Assembly (NCBI GenBank): GCA_947090755.1
Contig: CAMUPF010000006.1
Location: forward strand, 1-64,000
Source: an uncultured Candidatus Melainabacteria bacterium
Lineage (GTDB): Bacteria > Cyanobacteriota > Vampirovibrionia > Gastranaerophilales > Gastranaerophilaceae
Direction: 5' to 3'
DNA: 64,000 bases
A model generated the notes under the pieces. That model saw nothing but the letters and a program-made list of their open reading frames with translations. It had not been told where the DNA came from and did no database searches. The position numbers were made by a program, and so were the translations under genes. Positions 1 to 55,922 of the stretch are shown here, in pieces (positions within the stretch are counted from its first letter, which is position 1; the number at the start of each line of letters is the position of its first letter).

Positions 1-392
1 CGCTTGTACCCGCAGTTGCGTCTGCAAGCTGGTAGGTTCCATAACCACCAAGTGACGGCATTAGTGCCAAACCTTGAGAAAACCGTGCATAAAGTGCTTT
101 TCGCTGTGTGTTCCACGTACGTTCGTTAATGTTGCCCGTCAAACTAGGCAAAGTAATCGCCGCAACTACGCCGATAATCGTTAATGACAGTAAAATCTCT
201 GCCATCGTGAATGCAACGACTGCGCCTCGCGTAAAACGCCGCCGCTCGCGCTTGCGCCGAAAGCGCGGTTTCGCCGTCGCGCGCTCGACTCTCCACTTGC
301 TAAAGCAAGTTACGCGGCTCTGCTCGGCTTGCCCCCCCCCCCCTACTGTTCAGGCCCATATTACAAGGGGTTTCAAGGATTTGTTTTTTCAT
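1..392 (-). CDS. Prepilin-like protein, copy 1 (partial, runs off left edge; G-tract out of frame)
   Basis: Type IV pilin/pseudopilin-like protein; only the 5' part is in the window. The prepilin motif FTMAE (cleavage before F, Glu at +5) and hydrophobic helix are encoded from about 211 downward, followed by the family segment NINERTWNTQRKALYARFSQ. The ATG at 392 is chosen because GGAGG lies six bases upstream. It reads a short polar leader into 12 G (343-332). As assembled this frame stops soon after the tract (TAG); with 11 G it runs open for 62 codons into the Met of FTMAE. The leader holds GC-rich inverted repeats such as ACTTGC-TTTA-GCAAGT. I infer an exported pseudopilin under slippage control; export by a type II or type IV pilus machine is family knowledge, and no machine genes are in the window. 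Confidence 0.75.
332..343 (-). repeat. Homopolymer G12 tract in prepilin leader (copy 1)
   Basis: Twelve C on the plus strand, so twelve G in the mRNA, lie between the SD-backed ATG (392) and the FTMAE motif. The ATG-to-pilin-Met distance is 187 bases, one more than a multiple of three, so loss of one G restores the frame. Confidence 0.9.
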
Positions 393-14390: not shown

Positions 14391-15642
14391 ATGAACAAAA
14401 GAGATGTATTAACTTATGCAGGGGGGGGGGGGGAGCCGGCTGAGCCGGACCTCTAGCATAGACCCGTGCGTGCGGACGAAGAAACCGGCGAAGCGTGTTA
14501 GCGGATGTGAAGTGCCGGTGCGGCCTCACGCGAGTGAGGACGGCAGGGCACGAAACTGGACGATGCCGCCGTTGCGACCAGAGCGTGAGCGTCGGGAGCG
14601 GACAAATCGCGCAAGTGTTGATAACACTTGCAAGGGATTTGACAGGCGGGAGAACCAACGTTGCGCATTCACAATGGCAGAAATCCTTCTATCCCTAACA
14701 ATAATCGGCGTAGTGGCTGCGATAACGCTTCCGTCACTGACCGGAAACATTAACGAACGCACATGGAACACACAAAGAAAAGCGCTTTATGCCCGTATGA
14801 GTCAGGCAATCGCGTTAATGCCGTCACTAAACGGTTATGGAACTTTAACCGAGGGTAATGATTCAACATCTGCCGTGGATACGGCCGCCGAAACTTTCGT
14901 CACAGAAGGACTTTCCAAAGTTCTTAAGATTAACAACATCTGCGACTATAAGCATTTGGAAGACTGTGGTATTCCATCCAATATAACTCCGTATTCAGGT
15001 AGTATTATTGCTAAATTTCCGGAAACATTAAAGGATTATAATAACAGTCTGGTTTCTGTTTCTTTTATTGACGCTGCCGGCGGAACTTGTTCATACTCTC
15101 AAACCAATACTAAAGTCGCAGCGTTTGAAACACAAAACGGTGAGAGTATAGCCGTTTATTATAATCCGAATTGTTTGTCAGATTTAAAATCCGGTGATGC
15201 TTGGGATCCGGTACAGGCACGTCTGTGTGCTAATTTCGTCTATGATTTAAATGGTACTAAGGGGCCTAACAGTTACGGAAAAGATATAGGGTTTATTTCA
15301 GTATTTTATCCGACGGATAGTGATGTTGTTGCTCCGTATGTATATATGCATGATTCCGGCTCTGCACCTCAAGTATCTTCTGGGAATGAACAAAGTGCTT
15401 CCGAGCTTTGTACAGCTACTCTTGGCGGAGAGTATAGGGTTCCAAATAAAAATGAAGCGGCCGCTATGTTTGTTAACAGAGTGCTGATTGGCGGAAGTTT
15501 TATTGGCGAACACTACTGGACTTCCGGCATAGGTATATATAACGGTACAACCAGAGGCTCGGCGCAATCAATGTATTCAGGCGCCGAATTGTTAAAATTA
15601 CGCTCGGAATCTGTAAGGGTTCGTTGCGTAAAACGTAATTAA
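14391..15642 (+). CDS. Prepilin-like protein, copy 2, with long repeat-bearing leader (out of frame at G13)
   Basis: The mature part starts at the FTMAE motif (ATG of MAE at 14674): cleavage before Phe, Glu+5, then a hydrophobic helix and NINERTWNTQRKALYARMSQ. The C-terminal domain has NICDYKHLEDCGI, a CANFVYDLNGTKGPN-like block, RVPNKNEA, YWTSG and RVRCVKR, recalling the Lcl/FISUMP lectin-like end. The start at 14391 is chosen for AGAAAGGA and the promoter. In this assembly it enters 13 G and stops at TAG; with 12 G the frame is open to 15642. An ATG at 14416 is in frame now but lacks an SD. The leader would be about 92 residues, mostly encoded by a structured repeat. Probable exported pseudopilin; function unknown. 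Confidence 0.75.
14421..14433 (+). repeat. Homopolymer G13 tract in prepilin leader (copy 2)
   Basis: Thirteen G ten codons after the SD-backed ATG. Twelve would put ATG 14391 and the FTMAE motif in one frame. The hairpin CCGGCTGAGCCGG begins three bases downstream. Confidence 0.92.
14437..14655 (+). repeat. Structured GC-rich repeat inside the prepilin leader (repeat copy D)
   Basis: The hairpin CCGGCTGAGCCGG and a GC-rich arm are followed by the repeat core at 14509-14559: AAG-TGCC pairs with GGCA-(CGAAA)-CT, enclosing the hairpin CTCAC-GCGA-GTGAG and the conserved GGCAG. Downstream come a second stem region, the palindrome AAGTGTTGATAACACTT and the end TTTGACAGGCGGG, both shared with the copy between rplW and rplB. 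The whole repeat has no stop in the pilin frame, so it is translated when the leader is on. Confidence 0.7.
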
Positions 15643-25770: not shown

Positions 25771-25829
25771 AGAAAGGAGTGGCTGAGCCACCTCTATAAT
25801 TGGACCCGAGTGAAACTTGGGAGAAAGGA
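25771..25829 (+). repeat. 43-base hairpin element flanked by AGAAAGGA direct repeats
   Basis: AGAAAGGA at 25771-25778 and 25822-25829 flank a 43-base piece holding GTGGC-TGA-GCCAC and CCCGAG...CTTGGG. The other prepilin genes have AGAAAGG only once, directly before the start, so this looks like an insertion into the ribosome-binding site with an 8-base duplication that kept a working SD. Confidence 0.6.
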
Positions 25830-25833
25830 AATT

Positions 25834-26842
25834 ATGAAAAACAATATTGTAGACATTTCGACAGGGGGGGGGGGGGAGTGCCTTAACAGGCACATCTAAA
25901 CGCTTAGCGTTTACCATGGCTGAAATTCTTCTATCCCTAACAATCATCGGTGTGGTCGCTGCGATAACGCTTCCGTCTTTGACCGGTAATATTAACGAGC
26001 GCACATGGAACACACAACGCAAAGCGCTTTATGCCCGTTTCTCTCAGGCAATTGCCCTTATGCCGGACGTGAACGGGTACGGTACGTTGACAGAGGGCAC
26101 GGATTCAAGCGGCTCAAAAGTCGTTACCGAAGACACAGTTGCCGAAACTTTCGTTACGGAAGGCTTGTCTAAAGTTCTTAAAATAAACAATATCTGCGAC
26201 GCTGCTCACCTTGCTGACTGCGGAATTGTTAGTACTATTAATACCCAAACTTCTGCTGTTTCTACACCGGTTGATTGGTCGGGCTTGAATTCGCAGATGG
26301 TTAGTACTCAATACGGCGGTTGGACATCTTACTCGATGATTAATTCAAAGGCGGCGGCATTTGAAACACAAAATGGCGAAAGCATTGCGGTTTATTATAA
26401 TCCTGCCTGTCGAACATCTGCGGATTTGGTTACGGGATATCTGGTGGCGCCATTTGTTTGTGCCAATTTTCTGTATGACTTAAACGGAAATAAAGGCCCT
26501 AATACTGTCGGCAAAGATATTGGTTTTATAACGGTGCTTTATTCCGCGGATTCCAATGTTGTTGCGCCGGTGCCTTTAATTCAAACTAAGGCCGGTTACT
26601 ATGAAGACGCCATAAAATTTTGCCGTAGTCAGGATGATGCGCGGCTCCCGAATAAAGAAGAAGCTATTTCATTGTGGCTAAACAGGAAATTTTATGGGGG
26701 TATAAATTATATATTTTATACAAGTTCTTCACCCGGTGCCGCAAATAGAATCATAATTATTGACGCACCAAATGGTGGTATGATGGGTTCTTGCAATAAA
26801 ACAGAATCCAATGGTGTTGTTGCAAAATGTGTTAAACGATAA
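25834..26842 (+). CDS. Prepilin-like protein, copy 3 (out of frame at G13)
   Basis: Start at 25834 chosen for the promoter, AGAAAGGA and a leader like those of the other copies. Reading through 13 G it stops at TAA (25897); with 12 G the frame runs MKNNIVDIST-GGGG, a short basic piece and LA|FTMAE, giving a 25-residue leader, the most conventional of the set. The pilin part from ATG 25916 has the usual helix, NINERTWNTQRKALYARFSQ, NICDAAHLADCGI, CANFLYDLNGNKGPN and RLPNKEEA, ending AKCVKR. Two palindromes (GTGCCTTAACAGGCAC, AAACGCTTAGCGTTT) lie in the translated leader. An exported pseudopilin is inferred. Confidence 0.78.
25864..25876 (+). repeat. Homopolymer G13 tract in prepilin leader (copy 3)
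   Basis: Thirteen G directly after codon 10. The distance from the ATG to the FTMAE Met is 82 bases, one over a multiple of three. Confidence 0.92.
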
Positions 26843-35526: not shown

Positions 35527-36607
35527 ATGAAAAACAAACTTGTAAGTATTTTGTCAGGGGGGGGGGGGGCCGGCTGAGCCGGTTCTATATACGGGTTCCG
35601 AGCTTGCGGACGACGTGAAATTTAGCGCGAAGGGCGGAGAGCCGGCAAAAGCCGCCTTTACTATGGCCGAAATCCTCTTATCATTAACAATCATTGGCGT
35701 GGTTGCTGCGATAACTTTGCCGTCGCTAACGGGCAACATTAACGAACGCACATGGAATACACAACGCAAAGCGCTTTATGCCCGAATGAGTCAGGCAGTA
35801 GCGCTAATGCCGGCGTTAAATGGCTATGGCACTTTAACCGAAGGTAACGAATCCGCATCTGCCGTGGACACCGCGGCTGAAACCTTTGTCACAGAAGGAT
35901 TATCAAAAGTTCTTAAGATAAACAATATCTGTGATGCTGACCATATCCATGATTGTGGTATAGCTTCAATTGTCACTACTATGACCGGTGTAACTACTGC
36001 GGTGCCGAAAAAATTAAGTGAATTAAATCCTTCACTTACGTCCGTATCTTTCTATGATTCAGCTACCATAGGACAGGGAAATTACAGCGCAATAGATTCT
36101 AAAGCTGCAGCATTTGAAACACAGAATGGTGAAAGTATTTTGGTGTTCTATAATCCAACCTGCTCAACGATGGATGTGGATGTAAACAGAAAGTTCGTTC
36201 AGCCTAAAATTTGCGCTAATCTGGTGTATGATTTGAACGGTAACAAAGGCCCTAATACAGTCGGTAAAGACATCGGTTTTATGACGTTCATATCTTCGGT
36301 TGACTCTGTTGTGGCTGCGCCTGTGCCGTACGTGAGAAGGTTTGACGGTATAAAAGTCGAATACGCTTCTTCTACCTGTACAAATAGTGCGGGTGGAGAA
36401 TACAGGATCCCAACTATGGAAGAAGCTGCAGCTTTGTTTGTAAATAAAAATCTTATTCGTGAAGATTGGCCAAACGGGCACCTCTGGACATCAACCAAAG
36501 TGACCAAATCCGGTTACCTGACAAATTATGTAATGGTGATGGGGCATGGTGAGTATAGAATTCCCGTTCCTAACGCGGGGTGGAGTTTATTATGCGTTAA
36601 ACGCTAA
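35527..36607 (+). CDS. Prepilin-like protein, copy 4 (out of frame at G13)
   Basis: The ATG at 35527 follows the promoter and AGAAAGGT. As assembled it meets TGA right after the 13 G; with 12 G the frame is open: MKNKLVSILS-GGGG, then about 29 residues encoded by GC-rich palindromic sequence, then KAA|FTMAE, a 43-residue leader. The pilin from ATG 35663 has the helix, NINERTWNTQRKALYARMSQ, NICDADHIHDCGI, ANLVYDLNGNKGPN, RIPTMEEA, LWTSTKV and LLCVKR. An in-frame ATG at 35615 gives an open frame now, but has no SD. Probable exported pseudopilin. Confidence 0.77.
35557..35569 (+). repeat. Homopolymer G13 tract in prepilin leader (copy 4)
   Basis: Thirteen G after codon 10, followed at once by CCGGCTGAGCCGG, a hairpin. 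Twelve would open the frame. Confidence 0.92.
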
Positions 36608-42239: not shown

Positions 42240-43184
42240 TTATCTTTTAATGCACCATATTCTAAATCTATTTTCAATACCTAATGTATTTCGTCTATAA
42301 TTATAATTCCCCAAGTACCAGGCTTTATCAGCAGACACTTTTGTACTTGTCCAATAATGGCTGTTCCCTTGTGAAAAATCAATTCCTATAAACTCTTTGT
42401 TATAATACAAAGCTGTCATTTCATCTCTGCTTGGCAGTCGGCTTTCAGCATCCTGTAGTTTACACTGTCTTATTGCTTCGTTGTATGTATAGGTGTTTCC
42501 GTCTTGTTTCATTAAAGGCACGGGCGCAACCAAATTTGTATCTGACGGGTACATCGCGGTCATAAAACCCATGTCTTTACCGATTGTATTAGGACCTTTG
42601 TTTCCATTCAAGTCATAGATAAAGTTTGCGCACATATAAGGGTGTATGTAATCACTTGAAGTTTTGTCAATATCTGAAATACAGCTTGGGTTGTAAAAAA
42701 CCACAATACTTTCACCATTATTTGTTTCAAACGCGGCAGCATTAGTGTTTATGTGCGCTTGGGGGTTGATGAATGTATGTGAGGTTCCATCAGTTCCGCT
42801 ATAAGCAAATTCATTGGTAAAAGTGCTGTTCATTTCTTCTAAGGTTTTTGGAAAGCTATGTTTACTTCCGCTAAGGTTAGTGAATGACGATGCGATACCA
42901 CAATCAGGCAAATGTTCATTGTCGCAAATATTATTAATTTTTAGCACTTTAGAAAGCCCATTTGTTACAAAAACTTCTCCGGCATTTGAGTTAGTTTCTT
43001 CTTGAGTTACACCAATCCCGTAACTATTCAATGCCGGCATGAGTGAGATTGCTTGACTCATTCTGGAGTATAGAGCTTTACGTTGAGTATTCCAGGTTCT
43101 TTCATTAATGTTGCCAGTTAAACTGGGTAAGGTAATTGCAGCAACTACACCAATAATTGTTAGAGAGAGTAAAATCTCTGCCAT
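42240..43184 (-). CDS. Prepilin-like protein, copy 5 (start region broken or locked off)
   Basis: The pilin frame runs from the ATG in GFT-MAE to RIWCIKR, with NINERTWNTQRKALYSRMSQ, NICDNEHLPDCGI, CANFIYDLNGNKGPN, RLPSRDEM and YWTSTKV, so the domain is intact. The upstream start (ATG 43252, after AAAGGA and a good promoter) reaches TGA at codon 10, before the 11-G tract. In the pilin frame itself TGA directly precedes the tract. No tract length can therefore join ATG 43252 to the pilin, unlike the other copies. Translation from 43184 would lack the basic prepilin leader. Restart, readthrough or a decayed leader are the options. Confidence 0.7.
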   Translation of the reverse strand: MAEILLSLTIIGVVAAITLPSLTGNINERTWNTQRKALYSRMSQAISLMPALNSYGIGVTQEETNSNAGEVFVTNGLSKVLKINNICDNEHLPDCGIASSFTNLSGSKHSFPKTLEEMNSTFTNEFAYSGTDGTSHTFINPQAHINTNAAAFETNNGESIVVFYNPSCISDIDKTSSDYIHPYMCANFIYDLNGNKGPNTIGKDMGFMTAMYPSDTNLVAPVPLMKQDGNTYTYNEAIRQCKLQDAESRLPSRDEMTALYYNKEFIGIDFSQGNSHYWTSTKVSADKAWYLGNYNYRRNTLGIENRFRIWCIKR

Positions 43185-43191
43185 TGTAAAG

Positions 43192-43202
43192 CCCCCCCCC
43201 CC
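43192..43202 (-). repeat. Homopolymer G11 tract upstream of prepilin copy 5
   Basis: Eleven C on the plus strand directly before the codons for GFTMAE on the minus strand. Confidence 0.9.
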
Positions 43203-43276
43203 TCACCGGGAAGCCACAAAAATCAGGGGTTTTCAGACTTTTGGTTTTTCATAGTTTAATCCTTTCTTTTTTAATT

Positions 43277-44786: not shown

Positions 44787-45413
44787 ATGTCAAAAGAAAT
44801 TTTAAGCATAAATGGAGAAAAATTAGGCGAAATCTCTTTAGCTAAAGAAGTATTCGCTGTTGAGCCAAACTTGCACGTAATGCACTTGGCTTTAAGAAGA
44901 CAATTAAACAACGGTCGTCAAGGTTCTGCTTGCGCTAAAACAAGAGCAGAAGTAGCAGGCGGCGGAAGAAAACCTTGGAAACAAAAAGGTACAGGCCGTG
45001 CTCGTGCTGGTTCTTTAAGATCACCTCTGTTCGCTGGTGGTGGTGTTGTATTCGGACCAAAACCAAGAAGCTACGAAATTTCTATGCCGCAAAAAGCTAG
45101 AAAATTGGCTCTTAAATCTGCACTCTCTGCAAGACAAGAACAATTGGTTGTAGTAAAAGACTTCTCACAAATTGCTCAACCTAAAACTAAATTAATGGTT
45201 AGCGCATTAAAAGCGTTAAACGTTTCAGGAAAGGTTTTAATCATCGCTGATACTAAAGCTGCTGAAAACGCAAACTTAGAATTGGCCGCTAGAAATATCC
45301 CTAGCGTAAAAATGATTTTACCGTCAAACTTGAATGTGAAAGATTTGTTGGAAGCTGATTCAGTTGTAATGACAGAATCTGCAGTCAACGTAATTACTGA
45401 AAGGTTGCAATAA
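44787..45413 (+). CDS. rplD: Ribosomal protein L4
   Basis: 208 aa. The exit-tunnel loop GSACAKTRAEVAGGGRKPWKQKGTGRARAGSLRSPLFAGGG (about 49-89) is diagnostic. L4 also represses S10 operons in some bacteria. It is separated from rplC by a 105-base spacer and overlaps rplW by one base. Confidence 0.97.
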   Translation: MSKEILSINGEKLGEISLAKEVFAVEPNLHVMHLALRRQLNNGRQGSACAKTRAEVAGGGRKPWKQKGTGRARAGSLRSPLFAGGGVVFGPKPRSYEISMPQKARKLALKSALSARQEQLVVVKDFSQIAQPKTKLMVSALKALNVSGKVLIIADTKAAENANLELAARNIPSVKMILPSNLNVKDLLEADSVVMTESAVNVITERLQ

Positions 45414-45718
45414 TGAGTAAGAATACAAACATTGAAAAATTATACGGAATTATCAAAAAACCGTTAATCACTGAAAAATCTATGATGGCAACATCATTAG
45501 GACAATATACATTCGAAGTGCAAAAAGATGCAACTAAAATCGAAATTGCACAAGCAGTAGAATTAGCTTTTCCTGGAAGAAAAGTTAAAAAAGTAAGAAC
45601 AGTTTACATGCCATCTCACGCAAAAAGAATGGGCTTGAAACAAGGCAGAACTGATTCAAGCAAAAAAGCAATCGTAACCATCGAAGGTGATCCGATTGAA
45701 GAGATTGTGGGTGTTTAG
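45413..45718 (+). CDS. rplW: Ribosomal protein L23
   Basis: 101 aa. IIKKPLITEKSM, YTFEVQKDATKIEIAQAVELAF and VRTVYMPSHAKRMG are L23 blocks; it lies at the tunnel exit and docks SRP and trigger factor. Its ATG overlaps the rplD stop (TAATG). Confidence 0.96.
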   Translation: MSKNTNIEKLYGIIKKPLITEKSMMATSLGQYTFEVQKDATKIEIAQAVELAFPGRKVKKVRTVYMPSHAKRMGLKQGRTDSSKKAIVTIEGDPIEEIVGV

Positions 45719-45873
45719 CCTGCGTCAGCCGGTGTAGCGCCGGTGTCGACACGCGTGAGCGTGGCGAGCAGGGCGCGGAACACTACGTCACCGCCGTTGT
45801 GAGCGAGAACGAAAGTGAAGCGAACGAACAAATTTTACAAAAGCAAAGTTTTTAGGAAAATTTGACAGGCGGG
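45719..45873 (+). ncRNA. Candidate structured RNA repeat, copy B, between rplW and rplB
   Basis: Core 45734-45786: GTAG-CGCC pairs with GGCG-(CGGAACA)-CTAC, enclosing CACGC-GTGA-GCGTG and GCGAGCAG. A second half follows: CCGCC (about 45791) can pair with GGCGG near the end TTTGACAGGCGGG, enclosing variable stems. Shares both halves with the copy in the prepilin leader at 14437 and the first half with copy C after rplR. It adds over 150 bases to a spacer inside a ribosomal operon. Confidence 0.7.
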
Positions 45874-55300: not shown

Positions 55301-55414
55301 ACCTGCGGTCTATCTGCTGCGCTTAAGATACTGGCGTATTTCCACTCTAATTTTGTTAGAAGCCCGTGTGAACCCTCTTGGTGGAGAGCAGGTTTGGGCA
55401 GAAAGAAGGAAAAA

Positions 55415-55783
55415 ATGATTAAACAAGAAAACAGAAAAGCAAAAGTTCAAAAAAGACACAGATCAATCAGAAACAAAATCTCAGGAACCGCTGAGTTCCC
55501 TAGATTGGCTGTATATAGAAGTACAAAACACATTTACGCTCAATTGATTGATGATGTTAATCATGTAACATTGGCATCAGCTTCTTCAAATGATAAAGAT
55601 TTGAAAGAAAAATTGGCAAACGGCGGTAACATCGAAGCTGCTAAAGTTGTTGGTGAAACAATCGCTCAAAAAGCTAAAAAAGCAGGCGTTGAATGCGTAG
55701 TATTCGATAGAGGCGGATTCTTGTATCACGGTCGTGTAGCAGCTTTGGCTGATGCGGCTAGAGAAGCTGGCTTGATGTTCTAA
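55415..55783 (+). CDS. rplR: Ribosomal protein L18
   Basis: 122 aa. [13 protein letters not shown]-type start ([21 protein letters not shown]), [15 protein letters not shown] and [23 protein letters not shown] are L18, a 5S rRNA binder. The ATG at 55415 has GAAGGA upstream. rpsE, rpmD, rplO and secY, which normally follow, are absent; a structured repeat and a terminator come instead. Confidence 0.97.
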
Positions 55784-55922
55784 TTGCGTAAGCCGGTGTA
55801 GCCACAGCGCAGGCTTGCGTTGAGCAAGACTGGCAGGTGGCGAAACACTATGTCAGCGACGTTTCAATTTCTGCAATTGTTGATAACAATTGCTTAGAAA
55901 TTGTCAGGAGCTTTTGACGAAA
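55784..55922 (+). ncRNA. Candidate structured RNA repeat, copy C, after rplR
   Basis: Core 55798-55851: GTAG-CCAC pairs with GTGG-(CGAAACA)-CTAT, enclosing CTTGC-GTTGA-GCAAG and ACTGGCAG. Downstream, AATTTCT...AGAAATT encloses the palindrome CAATTGTTGATAACAATTG. It begins GCGTAAGCCGGTGTAGCC, close to GCGTCAGCCGGTGTAGCG of copy B. It sits where the normal operon order breaks. Confidence 0.68.

Follow-up and report, generated by a model that had tools for sequence, protein, structure and literature searches.

In Campylobacter and Neisseria, poly-G contingency loci are known in which the length of a G tract near the start codon sets the reading frame, and REP and BIME elements are intergenic hairpin repeats located at gene ends. 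In-frame fusions to genes are described in PMC2229807 for the palindromic elements of Rickettsia (RPE; Ogata et al. 2000, cited there) and for other MITE-like repeats, and the in-frame repeats reviewed in that article are the nearest precedent for translated leader repeats. Prepilin leaders, according to a review (PMC10191384), end in Gly or Ala, vary in length, can be very long, are cytoplasmic, and are cut off by prepilin peptidase. A paper on a termite Gastranaerophilus (PMC5877343) lists type IV pilus genes, including pilA, pilB, pilC, pilT, and pilD. Phase variation in Melainabacteria is treated for flagellins in the accessible literature, which yielded no report of a pilin set like the one described below among the matches listed in searches on Gastranaerophilales or Melainabacteria pilins, phase variation, and homopolymers and likewise none of palindromic insertions in prepilin leader peptides.

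In this study, we analyzed a window of 64,000 nucleotides (G000:C6:1-64000) from the 1.78-Mb genome of a Candidatus Gastranaerophilus (G000) and closely examined one of its prepilin genes. We consider it likely, at a probability of roughly 75%, that hairpin repeats were inserted downstream of a phase-variable G tract into a cytoplasmic leader that is disposable and therefore tolerates them. As with RPE (PMC2229807), short hairpin-forming repeats are found here both between genes and as open frames within protein genes; unlike RPE, they stand in series, in several phases and orientations, at one spot of one gene family, namely, a putatively removed leader preceded by a poly-G tract. Further RPE-like traits are a long stem-loop repeat present in multiple genome copies and an insertion relative to a repeat-free orthologue, found in one syntenic case (sister genome G002). 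The CHPELVSGS-type cassettes may also resemble Rickettsia RPE in sequence.

The remaining comparisons likewise hold in part. A homopolymeric G tract near the start codon is shared with the Campylobacter and Neisseria contingency loci, which differ from the present case, where roughly 120 prepilin paralogues share a genome of 1.78 Mb, the tract lies inside the leader, and the +1 phase is in unusual excess. Typical of type IV prepilins with class III signal peptides are the cut after Gly or Ala, the F at position +1, the E at position +5, and the hydrophobic core; untypical are the leaders of up to about 150 residues containing repeats, on which the available text of PMC10191384 is silent. Hairpin copies at gene ends, e.g., at 45717 and 55783, are reminiscent of REP and BIME, but here repeats also occur in coding sequence, and a search for the Y1 transposase (RAYT, Y1_Tnp, PF01797) gave no match in the own genome (0/1; controls positive in 5/14), which speaks against a RAYT-type mobilizer. 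Since no mobilizing enzyme was identified in this search, the mobility of the repeats is something we infer.

Features of the prepilin loci and of intergenic repeat copies in the window
Feature	Position	Strand	Details
Paralogous prepilin, truncated at window edge	1..392	-	12 G; 120-nt leader of a different repeat family
Likely prepilin start	14392..14420	+	ATG with AAAGGATGGAACTT upstream; encodes MNKRDVLTYA; paralogues arranged alike
Poly-G tract, putative phase switch	14421..14433	+	13 G; ATG 14392 in frame with 12 or 15 G
Repeat module M1	14434..14479	+	GCCGGCTGAGCCGG hairpin plus tail; common to other leaders, e.g., 35570-35613
Repeat module M2	14498..14667	+	Two hairpins with compensatory changes; reaches the cleavage site
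Mature pilin (predicted)	14668..15642	+	324 aa plus stop; N-terminal FTMAEILLSLTIIGVVAAITLP; TIGR02532 match
Paralogous prepilin	25834..26842	+	13 G; 33-nt leader SALTGTSKRLA without the window repeat; GCTGAGC hairpin in 5' untranslated region, 25782-25796
Paralogous prepilin	35527..36607	+	13 G; 87-nt leader, an M1-type module in another frame (PAEPVLYTGSELADD...)
Paralogous prepilin	42240..43252	-	11 G; 1-nt leader
Intergenic leader-cassette copy	45717..45872	+	Begins where ORF 45413-45718 ends; matching frame has stops
Intergenic leader-cassette copy	55783..55911	+	Begins where ORF 55394-55783 ends; matching frame has a stop

Pilins in the window begin at 14668, 25910, 35657, 43190 (minus strand), and 211 (minus strand). 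In the first of these, the leader occupies the 234 bases (14434-14667) between the 13-G tract and F at 14668, before which the prepilin is predicted to be cleaved; it consists of at least two repeat modules and is crossed without interruption, over 78 codons, by ORF 14416-15642. The initial annotation had placed the repeat between the G tract and the cleavage site and called it stop-free over more than 200 bases, and both statements were confirmed, with 0 stops over 234 bases in the pilin frame. ATG 14416, the start of the listed ORF, is unlikely to be the true start, as the Shine-Dalgarno-like sequence belongs to ATG 14392. At 13 G, the latter is out of the pilin frame and the gene falls into the +1 class; read as assembled, the prepilin gene is predicted to be OFF, and 12 G would restore its frame. 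The prepilin signature, with a G/A-to-F cut and E5, is present. The NCBIfam prepilin model TIGR02532 scored 17.6 bits against a cut-off of 16.3 (residues 84-105 of the 408-aa reading), and Pfam N_methyl reached 18.3 bits, below its cut-off of 21.2.

When the own genome was searched with the N-terminal 106 aa, 129 matches reached E ≤ 0.001; after subtraction of 7 weak or short ones (identity below 75%, or a fragment of 21 aa), about 120 close paralogues remain. The same family has 102 to 121 members in five of six sister genomes and 18 in the sixth. The own genome also contains 115 poly-G tracts (at least nine G, preceded by non-G); in the first 100 of these, 74 are followed by a pilin at a distance of at most 420 nt, and roughly half of the remaining 26 lie at contig ends. 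The pattern of a tract, 15 to 45 nt, and TTYACNATGGC was found in 6 of 21 genomes, all from this genus. Motif searches found 112 own and 86 relative pilins, of which 83 and 52, respectively, had a tract within 420 nt and were kept; relatives in the leader, phase, and alignment counts are the best 80 of 418 loci. With the relatives limited in this way, 133 of 135 leaders were long enough to encode a residue before the cut, which was A in 88 cases and G in 45, as described for prepilins in PMC10191384. A prepilin peptidase gene (PF01478, over its cut-off) is present at G000:C17:23040-23402. The tract lies between start codon and core and leaves paralogues in different phases, as is characteristic of phase-variable loci. 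These roughly 120 prepilin paralogues, most of them with a poly-G tract, constitute a very large gene set that is potentially phase-variable.

In the pilin gene L053 (G000:C38:2661), the G tract is shrunken and start, leader, and pilin share one frame (MKKLNVLISAGGTALSRSSCA), so that the gene is possibly locked on. At L204 (G000:C32:3407), the tract and an M2-type leader lead directly into the later pilin part with the N terminus missing, likely a recombination product. Tracts of 11 to 15 G lie within or beside other long ORFs at L004, L005, L210, L211, and L215 (G000:C1:83248, C1:102609, C8:16310, C8:22353 and 23464, and C18:2022), possibly marking more phase-variable genes. Contigs of G000 (e.g., C5, C8, C20, C47, C51, and C52) often start or stop within pilin leaders, indicating that the assembly breaks at repeats and that some leaders are incomplete.

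Comparison with orthologues lacking the repeat had been suggested as a check, and such a gene was found in G002. Its syntenic pilin is flanked by what we take to be a BadF-type ATPase and an MTAP-like gene, which both flank the window pilin too. Here, the tract is followed by CCTCTCTTAGGTGCT, a repeat-free leader of 15 nt (PLLGA), giving an in-frame reading of MKKKLVNMLEGGGGPLLGA before the cut and FTMAE after it. The leaders of this one syntenic pair differ by 219 nt, and since the G002 leader is in frame at 15 bases, the additional 219 bases are best interpreted as an insertion. Short leaders like that of G002 recur in the own and sister genomes. Among the six sister genomes, G002 has the repeat-free pilin at this locus, the G006 contig ends in the 5' untranslated region, and four have no pilin within 1.5 kb.

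The repeats are strongly concentrated in leaders. With three joined cassettes as the query, leaders accounted for 33 of 40 distinct places, a contig end for 1, and other sites for 6; with the 234-nt window leader, 20 of 31 places were leaders, 4 were contig ends, and 7 were other sites. The description of the repeat as noncoding elsewhere therefore holds only for a minority of the copies, which are intergenic, since most strong copies lie in pilin leaders. In 13 nonleader copies examined, the matching frame was interrupted by stops in 6 and open in 7; the latter were mostly short or derived from naturally open palindromes, and the longer copies had stops in most cases. The concentration in leaders (33/40) exceeds what passive tolerance alone would give, so that a further factor, either recombination among pilin genes or preferential targeting, has to be invoked.

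This concentration is also what would be expected if leader cassettes spread mainly by duplication or gene conversion of pilin genes and not by insertion of mobile repeats, an explanation that we regard as plausible at less than even odds. Several genes carry identical leaders, and N-terminal identity is slightly higher in leader-sharing pairs than in others (0.903 versus 0.879). On the other hand, the intergenic copies and the varied leader phases and orientations require several separate insertions. C-terminal identities do not support gene duplication as the sole source of shared leaders: they are equal in leader-sharing pairs (0.469, n = 21) and in other pairs (0.466, n = 1,014), which indicates that the movement of leaders is not tied to the variable pilin part. 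Probably, duplication or conversion and repeat insertion both act.

The leaders themselves are mosaics, ranging from 1 to 399 nt (up to 133 codons) in own and relative pilins (relatives, best 80 of 418 loci). M1 is common to many leaders, and M2 is shared with leaders in G000:C45, C1, and C31 and in sister species. In C45 and L065, M2 comes almost directly after the tract, which makes M1 look like an added module. GCTGAGC hairpins related to M1 also occur in the 5' untranslated regions of other pilins. Two GAAAGGA-like copies flank the hairpin at 25782-25796 and that at the G002 syntenic locus L220. Among the recorded leader-leader alignments (relatives again from the best 80 of 418 loci), 239 were in the same phase, 62 in another phase, and 182 on the opposite strand.

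In the M2 hairpins, 9 of 31 pairs were changed on both sides, and the covariation score of 0.200 exceeded the values of at most 0.078 obtained when the pairing was slid, for a set of 7 sequences and mostly through one divergent pair (L065 and L100). The global fold of the window leader was not significantly stable (z = -1.84 with 30 shuffles and -1.45 with 200 shuffles), arguing against a strong global fold, and the mean z score across 69 leaders was -2.48. In Rfam, the best match of the window leader reached 13.6 bits against a gathering threshold of 50, and two tRNAs were the sole matches in the window.

Phase was assigned from the ATG with a Shine-Dalgarno-like sequence, leaving out leaders with at least three stops, with N, or with less than 60 nt upstream; 3 of 121 had no recognizable start. 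The 78 own genes comprised 15 in frame, 57 with one base in excess (+1), and 6 with two (+2), and the 40 relatives (from the best 80 of 418 loci) comprised 11, 22, and 7, respectively. In the own genome, the imbalance between +1 and +2 is pronounced (57/63; p about 1.6e-11), and the +1 excess appears in each of the three classes defined by the tract length required; one relative source, JAMPIJ, shows a different mix, with 1 of 7 in the +1 class. This excess could stem from expression based on slippage, from selection for the OFF state, or from homopolymer errors that bias the assembly.

The initial annotation had also offered the option that the repeat acts in the mRNA, as a frameshift stimulator at the G tract or in translation control, and is translated incidentally. 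The GC-rich hairpin module immediately after the tract in many genes, the compensatory changes in M2, the mean fold across leaders, and the strong +1 bias of the tracts would suit such a regulatory element. A general role of this kind is nevertheless improbable, given that repeat-free leaders of 1 to 33 nt are common, that the syntenic gene of G002 lacks the repeat, and that the elements occupy both orientations and several phases. The modest fold score of the window leader, the absence of an Rfam family, and the intergenic occurrence of the same repeat families argue against it as well.

A function of the leader peptide itself, in targeting, in chaperoning, or as a small released peptide, is very improbable. 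The open frame is indeed kept over up to 133 codons, but unrelated sequences, frames, and strands are interchangeable. Mismatches between same-phase copies fell on codon positions 1, 2, and 3 in 723, 866, and 902 cases (89, 128, and 66 in own-genome pairs alone), with no third-position excess among the copies compared. Leader charge was not raised (0.051 per residue versus a six-frame mean of 0.093), leaving a function through positive charge unsupported. Since different frames and both strands are used without a third-position excess, it is the open frame alone, and not the peptide, that appears to be selected. The mosaic of phases and strands, the even distribution of mismatches over codon positions, and the paired hairpin changes are expected if palindromes persist as DNA or RNA elements and the peptide is free to vary.

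Taken alone, the openness of the window leader is only mildly unusual, since 272 of 5,000 dinucleotide shuffles (about 5%) were open as well. Across the gene family, chance does not account for it: among the 69 unique leaders that are linked to a tract and measure 60 nt or more, 67 were stop-free in the pilin frame, where shuffles predicted 12.4, and two contained stops. This agrees with the original reading of the repeat as a protein-coding prepilin leader. Non-redundant representatives gave the same picture (14 of 14 stop-free versus 1.58 expected). In the other two frames, the window leader has 8 and 2 stops, and 0 and 1 of the 69 family leaders are open. Apart from duplicates and leaders of <60 nt, the set omits L184, L190, L104, and L128, pilins that have their own short MK-type leader and whose frame does not stay open from there back to the distant tract. 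When all unique leaders were counted, the own genome had 7 pilin-frame stops in 1,933 codons, versus 131 and 100 stops in the two remaining frames; relatives (best 80 of 418 loci) had 12 in 2,525 codons, versus 165 and 152. Of these, 16 of the 19 pilin-frame stops fell in four pilins with a distant tract and their own short MK-type leader.

A pattern in which every relative starts translation downstream of the repeat was not seen. Internal in-frame start codons with a Shine-Dalgarno-like sequence occurred in 5 of the 69 long leaders, and such starts would leave the openness back to the tract unexplained. The scarcity of pilin-frame stops and of internal starts indicates that translation runs from the tract through the leader. 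That a GC-rich repeat is open by mere composition, with the true start downstream, finds some backing in the open shuffles and in one reverse frame of the window leader that is likewise open, but is strongly disfavored by the family-wide excess of open leaders and the rarity of internal starts.

The evidence fits the other option of the initial annotation, namely, that the repeat landed in the leader and was kept free of stops. According to this insertion model, hairpin-forming genomic repeats, here at least two modules, would enter just behind the poly-G tract and lengthen the leader. At an in-frame tract length, ribosomes starting at ATG 14392 would read through the G tract, the entire repeat, and the prepilin core, yielding a product that contains the MNKRDVLTYAGGGG-leader stretch. 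The leader of about 90 residues is expected to be cytoplasmic and would then be removed before F at 14668 by prepilin peptidase, and because it would be cut off on the cytoplasmic side, its amino acid sequence would be irrelevant. Selection would purge only stops and uncorrectable frame changes; shifts of one or two bases could be absorbed by the G tract, making the frame restorable after an insertion of any length. Against this model weigh the lack of an identified mobilizer, the strong concentration in leaders, the OFF state of the window gene, the 2 of 69 leaders with stops, the fold score of -1.45, a covariation signal from 7 sequences, and the reliance on a single syntenic gene.

More speculatively, the disposable leader may be a safe harbor for selfish repeats, with cleavage hiding the peptide and the slippery G tract mending the frame; the +1 excess would in that case reflect weak expression of most of these genes through tract slippage and not a plain off state. 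This combination is unlikely. Elements could then enter in nearly any phase or orientation, and slippage, whether by loss of one G from the transcript or by a +1 shift of the ribosome, would keep stops out even of nominally OFF genes.

For this uncultured gut lineage, the analysis points to about 120 possibly phase-variable pilins in a genome of 1.78 Mb. Their leaders represent a natural test of freely variable protein sequence, in which frames, strands, and unrelated repeats can be swapped if no stop arises. This suggests that cleaved cytoplasmic leader peptides may serve as landing sites for selfish DNA.
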